From: Streptacidiphilus pinicola
Lineage (GTDB): Bacteria > Actinomycetota > Actinomycetes > Streptomycetales > Streptomycetaceae
Reading direction: 5' to 3'
Length of the DNA: 64,000 nucleotides
Assembly (NCBI RefSeq): GCF_003258295.1
Contig: NZ_QKYN01000067.1
Span: forward strand, 1 to 64,000
In this document: in pieces, positions 16,870-56,287 of the stretch
Layout of the letters: each line of letters begins with the position of its first letter
Numbering within the stretch: position 1 is the stretch's first letter
Position numbers and translations under genes: made by a program
The notes under the pieces: model-generated
Databases searched by the model: none
What the model was told of the DNA's origin: nothing
Seen by the model: the letters and a program-made list of their open reading frames with translations, nothing else

Positions 16870-17160
16870 TCCGCGCCCATCCATCGCGCCTTCGACCCCC
16901 AGTCAGCCCCGATCGTGTGCGCCGTGCAAGCAGGCGTACGCCGACTGGCCGACTACGACCGCGGCGCGCTCGCGACGGGCCCGCCGGTGGCCTTCGTCCT
17001 GAACGACGACGGCGCGGTGCACGGCGCCGACGTCACCTCGCTCATCACGACCGTGCCACTCGCACCAAGGGTGCTGCTGACCGCGCAGCAGGCGCTCGAC
17101 CCTGATCGGAGCGGCATCCCGGACAGCGCCCGGCACACCCTCTCCCGATCAAACCGGTGA
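16870..17160 (+). CDS. Unrecognised frame with coding-like bias, possibly 5'-truncated
   Basis: The frame contains APIVCAVQAGVRRLADYDRG and then PPVAFVLNDDGAVHGADVTS and LAPRVLLTAQQALDPDR, with strong G/C third-position bias, ending with TGA at 17158-17160. Upstream of about 16870 the composition loses coding character, though a GTG at 16801 keeps it open. It could be a genuine small gene or a decayed remnant. No family recognised. Confidence 0.35.
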   Translation, partial: SAPIHRAFDPQSAPIVCAVQAGVRRLADYDRGALATGPPVAFVLNDDGAVHGADVTSLITTVPLAPRVLLTAQQALDPDRSGIPDSARHTLSRSNR

Positions 17161-17202
17161 TCGTGCGTCGCGGAGCGCTGATCGCACTCCACTGATTGGG
17201 GT

Positions 17203-17967
17203 CTACGCCCTCTTCTGCCGTAGGTCGTGGCCGGCGCTGATGGCCATGGCGGCCAGGAGGCCCAGTGCCGTGCTCTCGGCCAGGGACCCTGGATGAGGAG
17301 TAGTCCGGACCATGGCAAGGAGGTTCTGGCTCGCAGCGAGGGTCAGTCCGGTCCCGATGTGCAGCAGGGCCGTGGACAGCCGGCGCGTGGTCGGCAGGGC
17401 AGCGGTTCGGGCGATGCGGGCGACGAGGACGCAGAGGCGGAGTGCGACGAATCCGAGCGTGAGCCAGTAGCAGGTGACCGCAGCTGTGTCGGCGAAGCCG
17501 GTGAGGCGTTCGGCCATACCGCTCCATGCCGTCAGGCACAGGGCGACGACCGCGGCGGTCGGAACGGCCAGGGTGCGGACCGCAGCGGCGGTCATGTTGC
17601 GGAGCGCTGCGCCGCTCAGCGGGGGAAGTGGTGCGGCGAGACCGATGCCGAGCAAGAGCGGGACGAGCCAGAGGCTGGTGGCGGGGTGGTGGATGTCGGC
17701 CTTGAGGGTGGAGGAGGGTTCGGCCGAGCGCAGCAGCAGTCCGGTGGCCGCGGTGAGCGCGAAGAGGGCGACGGTTACCACACGGCGGGTCTGCCCGGTG
17801 CATGTCTCGGGCCAGTCGCCGGGGTGCAGCCAGAGGCGCGCGGCCCCCGCGAGGGTGTCGGGCCAGGACCGGATTCCGGAGGCGGACATCTCGTGACGGA
17901 TGTCCTCGCCCCATCGCTCGCGCACGGCTGGTGGGTAGAGCCAGGTCAGGAGCGTGGCCGCGTTCAT
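17203..17967 (-). CDS. PadR-coupled polytopic membrane protein
   Basis: A 254-residue protein. A cytoplasmic N-terminal segment (LLTWLYPPAVRERWGEDIRH...) of the sort found in the permease-prefix region of PadR-linked proteins is followed by about six hydrophobic helices, e.g. VVTVALFALTAATGLLL, LWLVPLLLGIGLAAPLPPL and LAVPTAAVVALCL. Its ATG overlaps the PadR stop codon as ATGA, so it is translated with the regulator. The function is unknown; in such operons the membrane protein is often part of, or controlled with, an ABC exporter. Confidence 0.75.
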   Translation of the reverse strand: MNAATLLTWLYPPAVRERWGEDIRHEMSASGIRSWPDTLAGAARLWLHPGDWPETCTGQTRRVVTVALFALTAATGLLLRSAEPSSTLKADIHHPATSLWLVPLLLGIGLAAPLPPLSGAALRNMTAAAVRTLAVPTAAVVALCLTAWSGMAERLTGFADTAAVTCYWLTLGFVALRLCVLVARIARTAALPTTRRLSTALLHIGTGLTLAASQNLLAMVRTTPHPGSLAESTALGLLAAMAISAGHDLRQKRA

Positions 17968-18275
17968 GCCGGGTTGACCCCGAGCGCGCGCAGGCCTGCG
18001 GCGGAGATCCGGGCCATCTGCTGAAGTTCGGCGCGCAGTTGGTCGCGACCGGCGTCGGTGATTTGCATGGTGCGGTGGCGTTCCTGGGGGTCGGCCGCCT
18101 CGTCCGCAGGCTGGATCAGCCCGCGCCCCTCCAGTCGGGACAGCGCGCCGTAGAGACTGCCGGGGCCGAGTCTGCGGCCGGTGAGCTCTTCGATCGCGGT
18201 GTTGATGGCGTATCCGTGCAGCGGCCTGTCCGCGAGGACGGTGAGCACGAGCATCTGGGCGTCGTTGCTGTGCAT
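17964..18275 (-). CDS. PadR-family transcriptional regulator
   Basis: A 103-residue protein with the PadR winged helix: QMLVLTVLADRPLHGYAINT, then RLGPGSLYGALSRLEGRGLI, wing TMQITDAGRDQL and a short C-terminal dimerisation helix. It probably represses its own operon and the divergent gene. Start 18275 has AAGGAGG about 4 nt upstream. It overlaps the next gene by 4 bp. A shorter, broken homologue lies at 55.0-55.15 kb. Confidence 0.85.
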   Translation of the reverse strand: MHSNDAQMLVLTVLADRPLHGYAINTAIEELTGRRLGPGSLYGALSRLEGRGLIQPADEAADPQERHRTMQITDAGRDQLRAELQQMARISAAGLRALGVNPA

Positions 18276-18300
18276 GAGCCTCCTTCCCTCCGATCCACAT

Positions 18301-18350
18301 ACTACGAGTCGCGATGCTACTTGTCACGTAGTACGAGGTGCGTACTATGG
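18301..18350 (+). promoter_or_regulatory. Divergent promoter with palindromic candidate PadR operator
   Basis: -35 TTGTCA (18321-18326), 16-bp spacer, -10 TACTAT (18343-18348), then 7 nt to the ATG at 18356, so the plus-strand transcript is probably leaderless. GTACG-AGGTG-CGTAC (18331-18345), a perfect 5-bp inverted repeat, overlaps the spacer and -10. ACTACG at 18301 and CGTAGT at 18327 form a wider inverted pair. The same layout occurs at the second PadR module. Confidence 0.6.
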
Positions 18351-18355
18351 CCGCC

Positions 18356-19381
18356 ATGGAACACCTGATGGCGAACGGCCGGGCCTCCTCGGCCATGGTG
18401 TGGGCGAGCCTCGGCGCGGCCGGTGTGTTCGAGGCGTTGACGGTGCTGGAGACCCAGGACAAGACGGTCAGGGCTGCCAGCCCGTGGCAGGACGACCCGT
18501 ACGACGTGGTGGTGTCCCTGGCTCAGTTTGCGGTGCCGATGCTCGCGCTGGTGATCGCGTTACGGCTGCTCGTGTGGCGGGCGCCGGGCGGCGCGGACCG
18601 GGCGCGGCAGACGGTTCGTGCGGCGGGGGCGATGGTCACGCTGGTCGGGCTCACGGTGGTGTCCGAGTGGGCTGCGGTCGTCTCCAGGACGCCTGCCTCA
18701 TCCTCGGGGACGTGGGCATCGGTGCTGATCGGCGGGCTGGTCGTCAATTCCGTACTCACCGTGGCGGTCGCGGTGTTGCTCGTGCGAGGCCGCAGAGGGC
18801 ACGGCTCGGCCGACCCATGGCGGCATGACTGGCTCGGCGACGTCGTCTTCCTCTGCCGACGGATTCCCGTACTGCGGCGCTGGGTCGGTCCGGACGCGGC
18901 GGTCTGGGTGCGCCGTCGCGCGATGACGGTGTTCGTCGCGCTGAGCACGCTGGCCGGGGCGGCCGTCACCAGTGCGCAGGCCATCGGCGAACGCTGGACG
19001 GATCCGCTGCTCATCGCCTGGTTTCTGGTCGTGGCAGCGACCTCCAACCTCGCGTTCTGCGCGATCAGCAACGCGGTCGCGGGATTCATCGCCCGGCCGG
19101 CCCGTACCCGGCTCCGCCGTGTCGCCGAGGTATCGGTTGTCACCGGATGCGTCGCGATCAGTGTGGCGACGGCGTTCCGCGACGCACTCTGGCCGATGTT
19201 CGGGACGGGATCGCTGACGTCCGTGCCGGCTTTGGTCGCCCTCACACTCGGCGTGGGGCTGGCCACCTCTCTGGTCACGGCCGCGGTCCTGCTCGCCTGC
19301 TCACCGGACGACTCCTTTGGCTTGCGCCGCCGCTTCGGCGCGGCCGCCACTCACCTTCGACGACCGGACAAGCACCGGTGA
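18356..19381 (+). CDS. Polytopic membrane protein of the SPWQDDPYD family, PadR-divergent
   Basis: A 341-residue protein with roughly seven to eight hydrophobic segments, e.g. SLAQFAVPMLALVIALRLLV, GGLVVNSVLTVAVAVLLV and TSLVTAAVLLACS. The first extracytoplasmic or loop region contains SPWQDDPYD, and a later loop has AIGERWTDPLL. Both signatures recur in the protein at 55223-56287, marking two paralogues with the same genetic context. No known transporter or enzyme motif is seen. ATG 18356 is chosen because it lies 7 nt after the -10 box; GTG 18338 and ATG 18347 are upstream alternatives. Confidence 0.75.
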   Translation: MEHLMANGRASSAMVWASLGAAGVFEALTVLETQDKTVRAASPWQDDPYDVVVSLAQFAVPMLALVIALRLLVWRAPGGADRARQTVRAAGAMVTLVGLTVVSEWAAVVSRTPASSSGTWASVLIGGLVVNSVLTVAVAVLLVRGRRGHGSADPWRHDWLGDVVFLCRRIPVLRRWVGPDAAVWVRRRAMTVFVALSTLAGAAVTSAQAIGERWTDPLLIAWFLVVAATSNLAFCAISNAVAGFIARPARTRLRRVAEVSVVTGCVAISVATAFRDALWPMFGTGSLTSVPALVALTLGVGLATSLVTAAVLLACSPDDSFGLRRRFGAAATHLRRPDKHR

Positions 19382-19392
19382 AAGGCGTGACA

Positions 19393-19536
19393 ATGCACCT
19401 GTTCACACCGCAGGAACAGGCAACACCTGCGATCTGCGCCCGCGAGCTGTCCAAACGGTACAGACGCAGGCAGGCCGTCAGCGAGCTCGGCTTCGCCGTG
19501 GAAGCCGGCCAGATCTGCGCACTGCTCGGTTCCGAT
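19393..19536 (+). pseudogene. ABC transporter ATPase, truncated before Walker A
   Basis: From ATG 19393 (AAAGG upstream) the frame reads ICARELSKRYRRRQAVSELG and then VEAGQICALLG, the start of an ABC ATPase up to the first glycines of Walker A. The match stops there and the sequence enters the end of the minus-strand regulator gene. It begins 11 bp after the membrane-protein gene, so an ABC ATPase once followed in this operon. Confidence 0.65.
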
Positions 19537-19569: not shown

Positions 19570-21777
19570 TCAGGCCGGGCCGGTCCCGTCCGCGAAACGT
19601 TGCTCGACCCACACGGTCTTTCCCCTGTCCGTGAATCGGACGCCCCATCGGTCCGCGAGTTGCGACACGATGTAGAGCCCGCGGCCGCCTTCGTCCGTGG
19701 TCCGGGCGTGGCGCAGGTGGGGGCTGGAAGCCTCGCCGTCGCTGACCTGAACGCTCAAACGGTCGGCGCGGATCAGGCCCAGGCGGCAGGGGGCTTTGCC
19801 GTAGCGGACGACGTTGGTCACCAGCTCGCTCACCAGGAGCTCGGTGGTGTCCACGGCCTCCTGGGGCAGTCCCCAGTGTCCCAGCTGCAGCCGGACAAGT
19901 GACCGTGCTTGTGCCGGGGCTCGCTCGTCGGCGTCCAGAACCCAGTCGACGGCGTCGTCGCCAGCCAGTCCGGTGGCCCGGCCCAGAAGCAGGATCACCG
20001 CTCCCGCCTCGTCGGCGGGTTCGGAGGCGAGCAGGGCCTGGTCGCACCGCTCGCGCAGTGAGCCGCCGGCCGAGGCGAGTTGAGCGTGCAGACCCTGCGC
20101 GCCGAGGGCCTTGAAAAGGGCCGGGGTGGTGAGCGCCAGGACCGTGCCGTCGGGGACGGGCATCCTGGTCCCGGCGAAGGGCGCGGTTTCGGAAGTCCCG
20201 AGGACCGGCCCATCCGGCAGGTCGACCTCAGCGAGGGATCCGTCCGGGTCGACGAGGACCAGACCAGCGCCTCCAGCGCGCGCCGCGATGAGGGTGCCGG
20301 CCACCGGGTCGTAGACCGCGCACAGGCAGCTCGCCGTCAGCGCCTGCTCCCGCAGCGGGTCGGCCGCGGGAAGGGCACGCCGTTCCGCTGCCAGCTGCCG
20401 GGTGGTCTCATCCAAGCGGGCCAACAGCTCGTCCGGCTCCAGGTCGAGCGATGCAAGGCAGCGCAGAGCGGTGCGCAGCTGGCCCATCGTCGCGGCCGTG
20501 TGGATCCCGGCCCCGTCGACCTCGCCGACGACCAGCGCGGTACGGGCGCCGGAGAGCGGAATGACGTCGTACCAGCCACCGCTGGCCGGACGCGTCGCCA
20601 GATGCCCCGGCGCGGTCTCCAGGCCGACGGCTGTCTGCGGTGCCTGCGGCAGGAACCTGCGCGCCACGGTGGCGGCCACCGCGTGCTCTCGGGTGTAGCG
20701 ACGCGAGTTGTCCAGACACAGGGCGACGTAGTCGGCCACCGTCGTGGCCAGGCCCGTGTCCTCCTGAGTGAAGGAAGGCGACCCCCGCCACCGGTACAGG
20801 CTCACCAAGCCCAACAGCGTGCCCCGCACCATGAGCGGCGCCACCAGCACCGCCACGGGTGCCGCGCCACGCAAGGCGGCGGCGTGGTCGGCGGCGGTGT
20901 GCAGCCAGGCCGGATCGCCCTCCATCGTGGCCGTGACCGGTCTGCCCTGCGCCAGCGCAAGGCCAGCGGGCGACGTCGCGTCCGGCACACGCGAGGACCC
21001 GAACGGCCCATTTCCCCTACCGGTACCGCGACGTCCCACGGCCGCGCAGTGCAGGGCTGTGAACTGCGGTGAAGGCAGCAGCGGAGGATCGTCGCCCGTC
21101 ATCACCGCGTCGACGACCTCCACGACCACCGCATCAGCCATCCCGCCCGCGAGAACATCCGCCGCCTCCCGGCAGATGTCGACGGCGTCCAGTGAGGCAC
21201 CCGCCCGTGCCCGTACCGCGCCCAGGACCTGTGAGGCCGCCTGCGCCACCTCCAGCTCCGTCACGTCCACCACCGCGGCCGCCAGCCCGAGCACCGCCCC
21301 CGACGGCGACCGCAACCGGAACAGCGACACCGAGAGTGTCCGTGCCGACGCCGGATGCGAGTCGACGAACGCCCTCACACGCCGCTCCAGCACCGGCCGC
21401 CCGTCCTCGAGCACCGAACGCGCCAGAGCCTCCACCAAATCCGGATCCTCCAACGCGAACACCTCCCGCAGAGGCAGACCCACCAGCTCCCCGACGTCAC
21501 GGCCCCGCATGGCCGCCGTCGCCGGATTGATCCGCGCCAAGCGCAGCCCCGCGTCGAAGATGTGCAGCCCTAATGGCGACAGACTGAGCAGCGCGTCCAG
21601 CGTCAGCCCCTCAACCGACTCCTCCACCCCGCTCACCGACCCGACCACCCAAGCGCCCGACTCGGCCCTTCGCGAGACAACCGGCTGCTCGACCGGCCGT
21701 CCATCGCGGAGCACCCCACGGCCACACGCTCGTTCATGGCCCACATGATCCCTGAATCCGGGCCCGCCCCACGACAT
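19570..21777 (-). CDS. PAS-GAF-SpoIIE phosphatase-like-HATPase regulatory protein
   Basis: About 735 residues. Domains in order: PAS (LHIFDAGLRLARINPATAAM...), GAF (CREAADVLAGGMADAVVVEV...LLGLVSLYRW), SpoIIE/PP2C-like phosphatase (SGGWYDVIPLSGARTALVV...ATMGQLRTALR) and a C-terminal HATPase of the anti-sigma kinase type (TTELLVSELVTNVVRYG, then DEGGRGLYIVSQLADRWG). Such proteins reverse or impose serine phosphorylation on anti-sigma antagonists. Metal-binding positions look altered: GGDWYD is SGGWYD and GDVxGHG is GEVDGAG, so phosphatase activity is doubtful. The start is uncertain; ATG 21777 is the first after the low-complexity leader, and later GTG codons are possible. Confidence 0.8.
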   Translation of the reverse strand: MSWGGPGFRDHVGHERACGRGVLRDGRPVEQPVVSRRAESGAWVVGSVSGVEESVEGLTLDALLSLSPLGLHIFDAGLRLARINPATAAMRGRDVGELVGLPLREVFALEDPDLVEALARSVLEDGRPVLERRVRAFVDSHPASARTLSVSLFRLRSPSGAVLGLAAAVVDVTELEVAQAASQVLGAVRARAGASLDAVDICREAADVLAGGMADAVVVEVVDAVMTGDDPPLLPSPQFTALHCAAVGRRGTGRGNGPFGSSRVPDATSPAGLALAQGRPVTATMEGDPAWLHTAADHAAALRGAAPVAVLVAPLMVRGTLLGLVSLYRWRGSPSFTQEDTGLATTVADYVALCLDNSRRYTREHAVAATVARRFLPQAPQTAVGLETAPGHLATRPASGGWYDVIPLSGARTALVVGEVDGAGIHTAATMGQLRTALRCLASLDLEPDELLARLDETTRQLAAERRALPAADPLREQALTASCLCAVYDPVAGTLIAARAGGAGLVLVDPDGSLAEVDLPDGPVLGTSETAPFAGTRMPVPDGTVLALTTPALFKALGAQGLHAQLASAGGSLRERCDQALLASEPADEAGAVILLLGRATGLAGDDAVDWVLDADERAPAQARSLVRLQLGHWGLPQEAVDTTELLVSELVTNVVRYGKAPCRLGLIRADRLSVQVSDGEASSPHLRHARTTDEGGRGLYIVSQLADRWGVRFTDRGKTVWVEQRFADGTGPA

Positions 21778-22061
21778 TGCAGCCGCCAGCGCGCCGCCCC
21801 CAAAGGACGCGGGCTCACGCCGGTTTCTGGGGGGCGGTTGCCGCCCGTGCCCGGGCCTATTGCTACATATCGCGGAGCCGGCGCTCCAAGGCCTGGCGGT
21901 AGAGGGCCACCCTTGCTCTGTACGTGGCTGCGATGTGCTTGTCCGTGCGGCCGGAATTCTCCGCCGATTGAGAGACACCGATCGAGTGACGTTCCCTCAG
22001 CCGGCACGGCGTCTGCACTCGGAGGTACGAGGGCGGCCGCGGCTGTGGCCTCAAGTCCGCA

Positions 22062-51224: not shown

Positions 51225-53021
51225 TCACTGCTCCCAGCGGCGTCCAGCGAGGCCGGGAAGGACCTTCGTGTGCTCAACCTTGACGGCCGTCAGCTTGTGC
51301 GGGTTGAGCCCCAGAACGGACAGGATCGTGGGGGCGACCTGAGTGGTCTCGACCGAGGCGGACTCGACCTGAGCCGGGATGCCCGGGCCGTCGACAATCA
51401 TCAGGACGTGCCGGTCGCCGGTGTTCATGCCACCGTGCTCGGCCAGCTTGGTCGGCTTCGCGTAGACGATGCCCTGCTGGACCTCGCCGAAGACGTCCGG
51501 GTAGTGGCCGTTGTTCACCGCGACGCCGAAGAAGTGCGCGGCGGCTGCGCCGGCCCAGATCTGCGCCAGGCCCGAGTGCGCAACGGTGACCGGCTTCTTG
51601 TTGACGTCGTAGCCCTGCGCGGTGTGGTCCCACAGGTAGCGCTTGACGAAGTCGCTGGCGGCCTGCGAGTTGTCCGACAGGTAGGACTGCCACAGGTCGT
51701 CGTCGGTTCCGGCGACGATGAGGCTCTTGTTGCTCGGGTGCCTCTTCGCCCAGGCAGCGTTGATCGCGCTGATGATCGGACCGTCCTGGACGGTGACGAG
51801 CTTGTTGGGGTCCTGCGGGGACTGACCGTGCTTGGCCGTCACAATGATCGTCGTCGAGCCCGCGAGGCCGTCCTTGTGAATGGCGCGGACCATGCGGCCG
51901 AGCTGGGCGTTGACATAGTCGAGCGCGCTGGACAGCACCGGCCCGGGGACCAGCTTGCCGTGCACCCACTGGTAGCCGCCCGCTTCCGGAGCGCTGGTGG
52001 TGTAGTTGCCGTGGGCGTCCGGACCGATCAGCGTCGTCGGGGTCGAGCGGATCTTCTGCGCGACCGAGACGGCCTGGAAGTTCATGCCGAAGATCGCCGG
52101 GGCGCCGACCTTGGTCTTGCCCGAGTGGTCGCGGCCGCCGATCTCGTTGAGGACTGCCTGGACCTTGTAACCGTCGTACTGCTTCGTGGCGGCGTCGATG
52201 TGGGCCCAGTCGTCATCCTGCGGGTACGGGACGCCGTTCGGCATGACAGCCTGCGAGTCGATCTCCGGCGAGAAGAGGTCGTCGATGCTCTGACCGTTCG
52301 AACCGGGACCGTTGAAGGACGCGTAGACCTCGTGCTTGTCGGACCATGCGGTGCGCAGGCCCGCGTTGTGGATGACCTGGAAGATCGTGTTGTCGCCGAG
52401 GTAGTCCCACGGGGTGATCGGCTTGCAGGTCTTGGGGGCGACCGGGAACGTCTTCGGGTTGAGCGATGTCTTCGGATTGAACTTCAGGTTCATGATCGCG
52501 GCCGGGTTGGTGTCGACACCCTTGGGGTAGACCGAGCCGTTCTCGTCGAACGACGGGAAGGTGCCGTTCGCCGGGTTGATGAAGTCGTTGACGTTCGCCA
52601 GTGCGTCGTCCGGCGAGTCGTAGATGACGTCACCACCGGTAGCCGGCCGGCCAGGCGTGCAGGTGGCCCCGGGCTCGTCCGTCTTGTGGCTGTACTCGAC
52701 GTCGTAGTAGACGCCGGTGGATCTGGGGTTACCGCCGGTCATCAGCGCGGTGCCGCCCGGGTCGGAGTCCGACGGGTTGGACGTCTCCGCATTGGTGTAC
52801 TCGCTGCCGGTGTGTGTCAGTCTGGCGAGCGTTGAGCCCGGGTGGTTGGCGATGTACCAGTCGAGATCACTCTGGTGCATGCCATCGATCGAGATGAGCA
52901 GGACGTGCTTGCTGGTGGGCGCGTCTGCCTCGGCGCTGGCGTTCACAACGGGAAGCCCACACAGCGCGGCTGCGGTCGCCGTGGCCAGTCCGACCAAGGC
53001 CGGACGGGTGTACCTGGGCAT
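51225..53021 (-). CDS. Exported alkaline-phosphatase-superfamily phosphodiesterase
   Basis: A 598-residue protein. Signal peptide 1-31 (ATATAAALCGLPVVNASAEA). The core of the type I phosphodiesterase/nucleotide pyrophosphatase fold: HVLLISIDGMHQSDLDWYIA with metal-binding D, PGGTALMTGGNPRSTGVYYD with a Thr nucleophile candidate, WSDKHEVY, then IVTAKHGQSP and EHGGMNTGDRHVLMIVDGPG with metal-binding Asp/His. It hydrolyses phosphodiester or phosphate-ester bonds outside the cell. AGGGAG lies about 6 nt before ATG 53021. Length and N-terminal export are typical for Streptomyces homologues. Confidence 0.85.
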   Translation of the reverse strand: MPRYTRPALVGLATATAAALCGLPVVNASAEADAPTSKHVLLISIDGMHQSDLDWYIANHPGSTLARLTHTGSEYTNAETSNPSDSDPGGTALMTGGNPRSTGVYYDVEYSHKTDEPGATCTPGRPATGGDVIYDSPDDALANVNDFINPANGTFPSFDENGSVYPKGVDTNPAAIMNLKFNPKTSLNPKTFPVAPKTCKPITPWDYLGDNTIFQVIHNAGLRTAWSDKHEVYASFNGPGSNGQSIDDLFSPEIDSQAVMPNGVPYPQDDDWAHIDAATKQYDGYKVQAVLNEIGGRDHSGKTKVGAPAIFGMNFQAVSVAQKIRSTPTTLIGPDAHGNYTTSAPEAGGYQWVHGKLVPGPVLSSALDYVNAQLGRMVRAIHKDGLAGSTTIIVTAKHGQSPQDPNKLVTVQDGPIISAINAAWAKRHPSNKSLIVAGTDDDLWQSYLSDNSQAASDFVKRYLWDHTAQGYDVNKKPVTVAHSGLAQIWAGAAAAHFFGVAVNNGHYPDVFGEVQQGIVYAKPTKLAEHGGMNTGDRHVLMIVDGPGIPAQVESASVETTQVAPTILSVLGLNPHKLTAVKVEHTKVLPGLAGRRWEQ

Positions 53022-55021: not shown

Positions 55022-55147
55022 ACTGCCGCTGCCGGCCCCGAGGCGCTCTCCCACCAACTGCTCGATGGCCGCGTTCACGGCGTAACCGTGCAGCGGCCCG
55101 TCGGCCAGGGCGCAGAGCACCAGCGTCTGAGCGTCGTTGGCCTGCAT
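55022..55147 (-). pseudogene. PadR-family regulator, truncated
   Basis: From ATG 55147 (GGGAGG about 8 nt upstream) the frame reads QANDAQTLVLCALADGPLHG and YAVNAAIEQLVGERLGAG, clearly homologous to the PadR at 17964-18275, and then leaves homology before the recognition helix (LYGALSRLE is missing). The protein cannot bind DNA normally. It faces the second SPWQDDPYD membrane-protein gene. Confidence 0.8.
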
Positions 55148-55180: not shown

Positions 55181-55216
55181 GTTACTACGCACAGCGTAAT
55201 ACGCGGCGTGTACTAT
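55181..55216 (+). promoter_or_regulatory. Promoter and candidate PadR operator of the second module
   Basis: -10 TACTAT at 55211-55216, then 6 nt to ATG 55223: a leaderless start as at 18356. Upstream, TACGC-ACA-GCGTA and TACGC-GGC-GTGTA form palindromic half-sites comparable to the first module. The stretch TACTATGCCGCCATG matches TACTATGGCCGCCATG at the first module. Confidence 0.5.
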
Positions 55217-55222
55217 GCCGCC

Positions 55223-56287
55223 ATGCCGAACCGTCCCGACGCGCCGCCGACCGCCGACGCGACGCTCCCCGCCGACCACCCCGCCCGGGCCGCGGTCCGC
55301 CGGGCCGCGCGGGACGGCCTCGCCGCGGCCGTGCTCTTCACCGCCTTCGCCGAGGTCACCTCCCACGTCCGAGCGGTGCGCGCGGGCAGCCCGTGGCAGG
55401 ACGACCCGTACGACGCCGTGGTCTCGTTCACCCTGTTCCTCGTTCCCGCCCTGGCGGCGCTCGCCACCGCCCGGTCCGTCCTGCTGCGACGCGACGAGCC
55501 GCAGCCGCACTTCCGGATCGGTCAACTCCTGCGCGCCTGGGGCCTGAGCGCCGCACTGATCGCCGCCACCGCGCTCACCGACTGGACAGCCGTGGCGCTG
55601 CGCGCCGACCGCGATCGGTGGAGCGGCACGACGCCCTGGTTGGTCGTATCCCTGGCGCTCCCCACGGCGGCGGCAGCCCTGGCGGGGGCACGCGTCCTGC
55701 AAGCTCGTCGCCTGCTCCCACCAGGCCTGCGCGGGCGCCGGGAGGGTGCGGCGGCGGGTGACTGGCTCGACGATCTAGCGCCCGTGGCCCAGGACCTGGC
55801 CGCGCGCCTCCCAGCCCCGCTGACGTGCGCGGTAGAGCGGGCTGTGACGCTCCGGCCCTTCGTCTCCGCCATGCGGTTCACCCGTCGGCACGTCGTGGGC
55901 CTCGCTGGAGCAGCGGCCTGGCTCGGCGGCGCGCTGCTGGCCGCCGCGGAGGCCGTCGGCGAGGGCTGGACCGACCCGCTGCTCTGGCTCACCGCCGCAT
56001 CGGTCCACGCGTGCGGGTTCTTCGCCTTCGCGATGCTCTGCAACGCGACGCTGTCGATCGCCGTGCCGCGCGCGAACGGCCGCCGTCGCGGGTCCGCGCG
56101 AGCCGCGCGCCACGCGATCACGGCGGCGGCTCTCGCCGTGCCGCTCACCGGAGCCCTGCGAGCGCCGCTCCGTCCGCTGATCGGCCGGACCGCCACCGTT
56201 CCGGCCCTCGCCGAGTTGGTCCTCACTGGCGCCGCCGTCGCGGGCGTGCTCACCTTCGTTGTCGCCATCGCACTCGGCTCCGACTGA
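55223..56287 (+). CDS. Polytopic membrane protein, SPWQDDPYD paralogue
   Basis: A 354-residue protein with the same signatures as the protein at 18356-19381: SPWQDDPYDAVVSFTLFLVP, AVGEGWTDPLLWL and a similar helix layout (about seven segments, e.g. AALIAATALTDWTAVALR, LVVSLALPTAAAALAGARVL, VVGLAGAAAWLGGALLAAAE). Function unknown. The ATG is 6 nt after the -10 box. Its PadR partner is truncated, so expression may be constitutive or depend on the other PadR. Confidence 0.75.
   Translation: MPNRPDAPPTADATLPADHPARAAVRRAARDGLAAAVLFTAFAEVTSHVRAVRAGSPWQDDPYDAVVSFTLFLVPALAALATARSVLLRRDEPQPHFRIGQLLRAWGLSAALIAATALTDWTAVALRADRDRWSGTTPWLVVSLALPTAAAALAGARVLQARRLLPPGLRGRREGAAAGDWLDDLAPVAQDLAARLPAPLTCAVERAVTLRPFVSAMRFTRRHVVGLAGAAAWLGGALLAAAEAVGEGWTDPLLWLTAASVHACGFFAFAMLCNATLSIAVPRANGRRRGSARAARHAITAAALAVPLTGALRAPLRPLIGRTATVPALAELVLTGAAVAGVLTFVVAIALGSD

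Follow-up and report, generated by a model that had tools for sequence, protein, structure and literature searches.

The locus, its second copy and their history

The window, by which we mean the whole 64,000-nucleotide stretch that was analysed, carries a compact gene cluster centred on a PadR regulator (Table 1). The regulator gene and the gene of a membrane protein, here called A, lie on the minus strand and together span 17203-18275, with the ATGA overlap between them that an earlier note on this DNA had described. On the opposite strand, 80 bp from the PadR start, begins the gene of a second membrane protein, B, which contains both of the motifs read by that note, SPWQDDPYD and AIGERWTDPLL. 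It is followed by a DrrA-like ABC ATPase that departs from its relatives inside the Walker A motif, where the note had placed the cut. The regulator scores 58.1 bits against PF03551 (curated cut-off 27) and thus has the PadR winged-helix domain; against the acidobacterial PadR model TIGR03433 it scores 67.2 bits, below the cut-off of 101.8. The window holds no intact exporter of the DrrAB type, since the ATPase is truncated and no permease was found within the window. The source genome is a draft of 281 contigs, and the break at 19529 may therefore be a misassembly. A gene for a PAS-GAF-SpoIIE-HATPase regulator (19570-21978) ends 41 bp past the truncated ATPase.

Table 1. Positions of the genes, promoters and candidate operator boxes at the two loci of the window
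Feature	Position	Strand	Description
A	17203-17967	-	254 aa membrane protein; proposed sensor and partner of PadR
PadR regulator	17964-18275	-	103 aa; PF03551, E = 8.7e-16; overlaps A (ATGA)
B	18356-19381	+	341 aa; eight predicted TM helices; conserved loops SPWQDDPYD and GERWTDPLL
DrrA-like ABC ATPase remnant	19393-19529	+	Cut inside Walker A
Transferred block with module	17153-19529		From blastn and dS; block end coincides with the ATPase break
Candidate operator, GTASTAC-like boxes	18299-18305, 18314-18320, 18328-18334, 18342-18348		Spacing 15, 14 and 14; from sequence and conserved phasing
B promoter	18321-18348	+	-35 TTGTCA 18321-18326, -10 TACTAT 18343-18348; predicted leaderless
padR promoter	18299-18327	-	-35 GTGACA 18327-18322, -10 TAGTAT 18304-18299
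PadR' remnant	55028-55147	-	Profile positions 1-40; below the PF03551 cut-off
Second-locus boxes	55182-55188, 55196-55202, 55210-55216		14-bp phase; the last is the -10
B'	55223-56287	+	354 aa; B family, other clade; under purifying selection

Neither A nor B of the window matches any Pfam family, and in a search of 45 members of the A family none does. The AF2 model of B has eight TM helices (pLDDT 86), and that of A a short helix, a long N-terminal helix (13-47) and then about six TM helices (pLDDT 83). Foldseek searches of the PDB with both models gave no match at E ≤ 0.001, and a PDB sequence search with B gave none. Loop charges computed across the B family place the SPWQDDPYD and GERWTDPLL loops outside the cell. 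An internal 4+4 duplication of the TM helices of B, with W-x-D-P at equivalent loops, was considered and is not significant (hhalign probability below 1%); A and B were also compared and show no homology to each other.

By blastn the block that carries the first locus shares 96.3% identity with Streptomyces albospinus and 88-90% with other Streptomyces loci, and its dS relative to S. albospinus is 0.04-0.06. So low a dS between two genera points to a recent transfer of this copy. The S. albospinus ATPase has a break of its own, different from that of the window. A single 9-mer direct repeat was found at the block ends, outside the boundaries, and there is no sign of an att site.

The earlier note took this locus for the first copy of a repeated module and reported the same pair of genes 37 kb away. 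Part of that stands: B and B' are related on alignment (31% identical, E = 7e-17), the distance from PadR to B is similar (80 and 75 bp), and the promoter pattern is common to both. The module itself does not recur whole, as the second PadR is a remnant of about 40 residues and A was searched for there and is absent. Nor is the second locus a duplicate. When 56 B proteins were placed in a maximum-likelihood tree, that of the window fell in a Streptomyces and Actinomadura clade, beside S. albospinus, and B' joined proteins of Streptacidiphilus and a single one of Streptomyces; strongly supported branches separate the two. On the strength of this topology and of the 96% match between copy 1 and S. 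albospinus we reject the view that one copy arose from the other by duplication; judged from the tree, the two copies are separate acquisitions of one family. Copy 1 represents a module that was transferred recently and has been trimmed, and copy 2 is degenerate and belongs to a different clade of the B family. A plasmid search found no homologues of B'.

Both loci could be read as non-functional relics of a decaying mobile module, given the broken ATPase, the PadR' remnant, the missing second A and the additional traces that the same genome carries on other contigs. We regard this as quite improbable: the frames of A, PadR, B and B' are all open, their dN/dS of 0.1-0.6 relative to their relatives indicates purifying selection, and the promoters and boxes are intact.

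Predicted divergent promoters and phased candidate operator boxes

The leaderless promoter that had been proposed upstream of B is recovered by a promoter scan, which returns TTGTCA-16-TACTAT on the plus strand and GTGACA-17-TAGTAT on the minus strand (two found, against 0.1 in shuffled sequence), with the TACTAT 7 nt from the B ATG. The -35 hexamers of the B and padR promoters overlap, and the outermost of the four GTASTAC-like boxes are the -10 elements of these two divergent promoters. Within the window, the pattern GTASTAC-N7-GTACTAT with up to two mismatches occurs only at the promoters of the two loci, B and B', and it does not occur in shuffles.

The same arrangement is seen upstream of PadR genes in more than 10 genera, where GTASTAC boxes follow one another in a 14-bp phase and the final one serves as -10 element for the divergent gene. 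Among 38 non-redundant promoters, box pairs lie 14 bp apart 69 times, 28 bp apart 41 times and 42 bp apart 13 times, with about none in shuffles, counts that overstate the significance because the box pattern and its anchor were picked after the promoters had been seen. The start codon follows the -10 by 7 nt in 23 of 41 cases and by 6-8 nt in 38 of them. As an independent check, a strict form of the operator pattern was sought: the window's genome has a single match, one of 20 relatives has another, whose 30 bases are identical to the promoter of locus L089, and a reversed control has none. With at most one mismatch, the promoters of the window's two loci are the only matches in the genome. 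PadR may occupy these boxes and repress both B and its own promoter.

Distribution and partner genes

A profile search of public genomes with B yielded 59 loci in about 20 lineages; most belong to Actinomycetota and a few to MAGs of Chloroflexota and Dormibacterota. By single-sequence search B is present in 25 of 249 genomes sampled from the family; it is present in 3 of 396 drawn from the phylum. The distribution is sporadic, and one copy resides on a linear Streptomyces plasmid, pRLB1-9.2. The linkage of B homologues to PadR genes, on which the reading of the earlier note depends, holds elsewhere. Six-frame searches around the loci found PadR near B in 49 of the 59, divergent in 44 and on the same strand in 5, leaving 10 loci without it. 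A lies near B in 46 loci, and PadR is present in every one of these. We found no description of the PadR, A and B module, and no phenotype, in the open-licence PMC literature. The B homologues of two Dormibacterota loci (L087, L102) and one Chloroflexota locus (L101) have no PadR of this type, and those of Dormibacterota are oriented divergently from the genes of an FtsX-like permease and its ATPase. In a Kitasatospora subgroup (L041, L045, L046, L047 and L050) a small membrane-protein-like frame of 77-105 aa lies between the promoter and B and overlaps or abuts the B start.

Fuller relatives carry additional genes. In the window's clade a DrrA-like ATPase and an ABC-2 permease lie directly 3' of B (L034, L079, L084, L086, L090, L094, L097, L103 and L123), the ATPase being intact in L034, L094 and the plasmid locus L123. 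A different ABC pair lies next to B in L054-L058 and L065, in some loci between PadR and B. These intact exporters are consistent with the suggestion of the earlier note that such PadR modules often control exporters or sense stress, and they are the basis of the main rival to the reading we prefer. According to it, the module would be a PadR-regulated antibiotic or peptide immunity exporter, similar to the LmrR, LftR or Drr systems, in which the ABC pair is the effector, PadR binds the drug, A and B are accessory, and loci lacking ABC genes, the window included, are decaying. Repression of exporters by PadR proteins is well documented (PMC6624303), and in the complete relatives PadR does lie next to an ABC exporter, as in LmrR/LmrCD and LftR/LieAB. 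Unlike those systems, however, the module has a core of A, PadR and B, to which the exporter is optional and in the window broken. The DrrA-like ATPase and ABC-2 permease of the intact relatives recall the DrrAB-type exporters, but these ATPases score under the curated drrA cut-off and that of the window is truncated. Many loci with no ABC gene nearby still keep A, PadR, B and the operator, and purifying selection on B and A persists where the ATPase is broken. We therefore consider the exporter reading rather unlikely, at perhaps one chance in a few. The ABC ATPase after B is also broken in several Streptomyces genomes (L082 7023-7679, L092 7044-7995 and L096 7034-7303), and since the breaks differ, exporter loss in the window's clade looks recurrent.

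Other partners have to do with lipids. In Micromonospora, Actinocatenispora, Nonomuraea, Actinoallomurus and Sphaerisporangium the C-terminus of B is fused to an extra TM helix and a PAF-acetylhydrolase-like domain, which would be external as well; in Fodinicola the PAF-acetylhydrolase-like gene is separate and follows B. A cis-prenyltransferase scoring above the TIGR00055 cut-off follows A in Kitasatospora/Streptomyces and in Actinoallomurus, and is an extra paralogue in the genomes checked. For example, among the UppS copies of Kitasatospora/Streptomyces, the linked ones are 90-100% identical to the query, and the others about 52% and 40%. A GT2 enzyme annotated as polyprenol monophosphomannose synthase (PPM) lies next to A on the plasmid, with a relative after B in K. 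mediocidica; these two linked copies are closer to each other (76%) than to the nearest other copies (45-58%). PPM-like fragments or shorter genes occur in L082, L083 and L100. The linkage of UppS and PPM may partly reflect shared ancestry. On the plasmid PPM, A and PadR lie in that order on one side of the divergent promoters and B, ATPase and permease on the other; the window keeps the middle only.

GT-C enzymes typically have an acidic motif in their first external loop. SPWQDDPYD is such a motif in the first external loop of B, and B might accordingly be a GT-C-like glycosyltransferase with SPWQDDPYD as its catalytic site, using a polyprenyl-phosphate sugar that the linked UppS and PPM-like enzymes supply. 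We think this very unlikely, as B has only eight TM helices in 341 aa, and the searches of Pfam, of PDB sequences and of PDB folds reported above, which gave no sign of a GT-C fold, speak against it. A different and still doubtful proposal is that B represents a new class of membrane proteins handling polyprenyl-phosphate carriers or their adducts, and that A and PadR form a new sensor-repressor pair for the state of the lipid carrier, recruiting an accessory cis-prenyltransferase, polyprenol-phosphate mannose synthase, exporter or lipid hydrolase.

Proposed regulation and traces elsewhere in the genome

Because B so often has as neighbours an exporter, a lipid hydrolase or additional enzymes that make the cell-wall lipid carrier, PadR, A and B probably constitute an undescribed envelope-stress module of many soil actinobacteria. 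The specific form of this reading that we prefer, to which we give about an even chance, is a mobile module in which a switch made of PadR and a membrane sensor lifts the repression of B and its partners when the envelope is stressed. PadR would cover the boxes that double as -10 elements and shut both promoters, repressing its own synthesis together with B and the partner genes. A, with its multiple TM helices and predicted N-terminal helical domain, would sense a signal in the membrane and release PadR, as has been proposed for the HAAS-PadR dyads (PMC11237479). B, with its acidic external W-x-D-P loops, would be the constant effector acting on the envelope, assisted by variable helpers, namely lipid-carrier enzymes, an exporter or a surface lipid hydrolase. 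The exporter is broken in the window, and B alone would therefore be the output there. Gene order, the ATGA overlap, promoter architecture, linkage and selection are shown computationally, and the role of A as sensor and the activity of B are inferred. Counting against an envelope response are the variability of the partners, the 10 of 59 loci without PadR and the lack of a fold match for A and B.

HAAS-PadR wHTH dyads consist of a standalone PadR and a multi-TM protein with an N-terminal helical domain, through which a membrane signal is proposed to reach PadR (PMC11237479). The pairing of A, a multi-TM protein with an N-terminal helix, with a standalone PadR is alike, and all 46 A genes near B have such a PadR beside them. 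In the dyads a three-helix domain is fused to the multi-TM region; the AF2 model of A has a short helix and a single long one ahead of its TM helices. However, the 45 A proteins gave no match to the HAAS domain (DUF1700/DUF1048) at E ≤ 0.1, the GxP motif is absent from the conserved columns of A, and no PspC or Toastrack partner was seen. As the HAAS sequence signature is absent, A is not classed as a HAAS member. A genome search for HAAS genes with PF08006 gave no matches; its controls were equally blank, which makes it an uninformative yardstick. In the Listeria LltR operon lmo0599-0601, a PadR repressor is followed by a DUF1700 multi-spanning protein, and the operon is strongly derepressed without PadR (PMC6624303). 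The PadR gene is likewise paired there with a gene for a multi-spanning membrane protein, but no divergent B-type gene is described, and A is not a DUF1700 protein.

The module links a repressor that has a short and easily recognised operator to two families of membrane proteins absent from Pfam, and it does so both in actinobacteria that produce antibiotics and on a linear plasmid. Should the polyprenyl connection prove real, it offers a testable lead on how these bacteria sense and protect the lipid carrier of wall synthesis. The operator pattern can also be used to find further targets.

With two mismatches allowed, the operator matches in the window's own genome include a padR promoter on contig C17 and an array on contig C248. 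The C17 gene (G000:C17:38917-39330, locus L115) encodes a second PadR that is intact, belongs to the other clade type (MQANDAQ) and has boxes of its own upstream; behind it lies a 37-residue remnant of A, and there is no B. This PadR could act in trans on the orphaned B'. The C248 array (G000:C248:40820-40854, about 7821-7855 of L114) consists of the iterons TTACTAC-N7-GTACTAC-N7-GCACTAT, followed 7 nt on by an ATG and a very short frame. No B was found beside it, and it is apparently a relic of the module. The gene divergent to it is of a secreted phosphodiesterase-like type, and its N-terminus is similar to that of a gene close to copy 2, at 51225-53021. On contig C18 (G000:C18:11249-11578) there is a partial cis-prenyltransferase frame, interrupted by one TAG and 70% identical to the module-linked UppS, which is perhaps a relic of the accessory gene.
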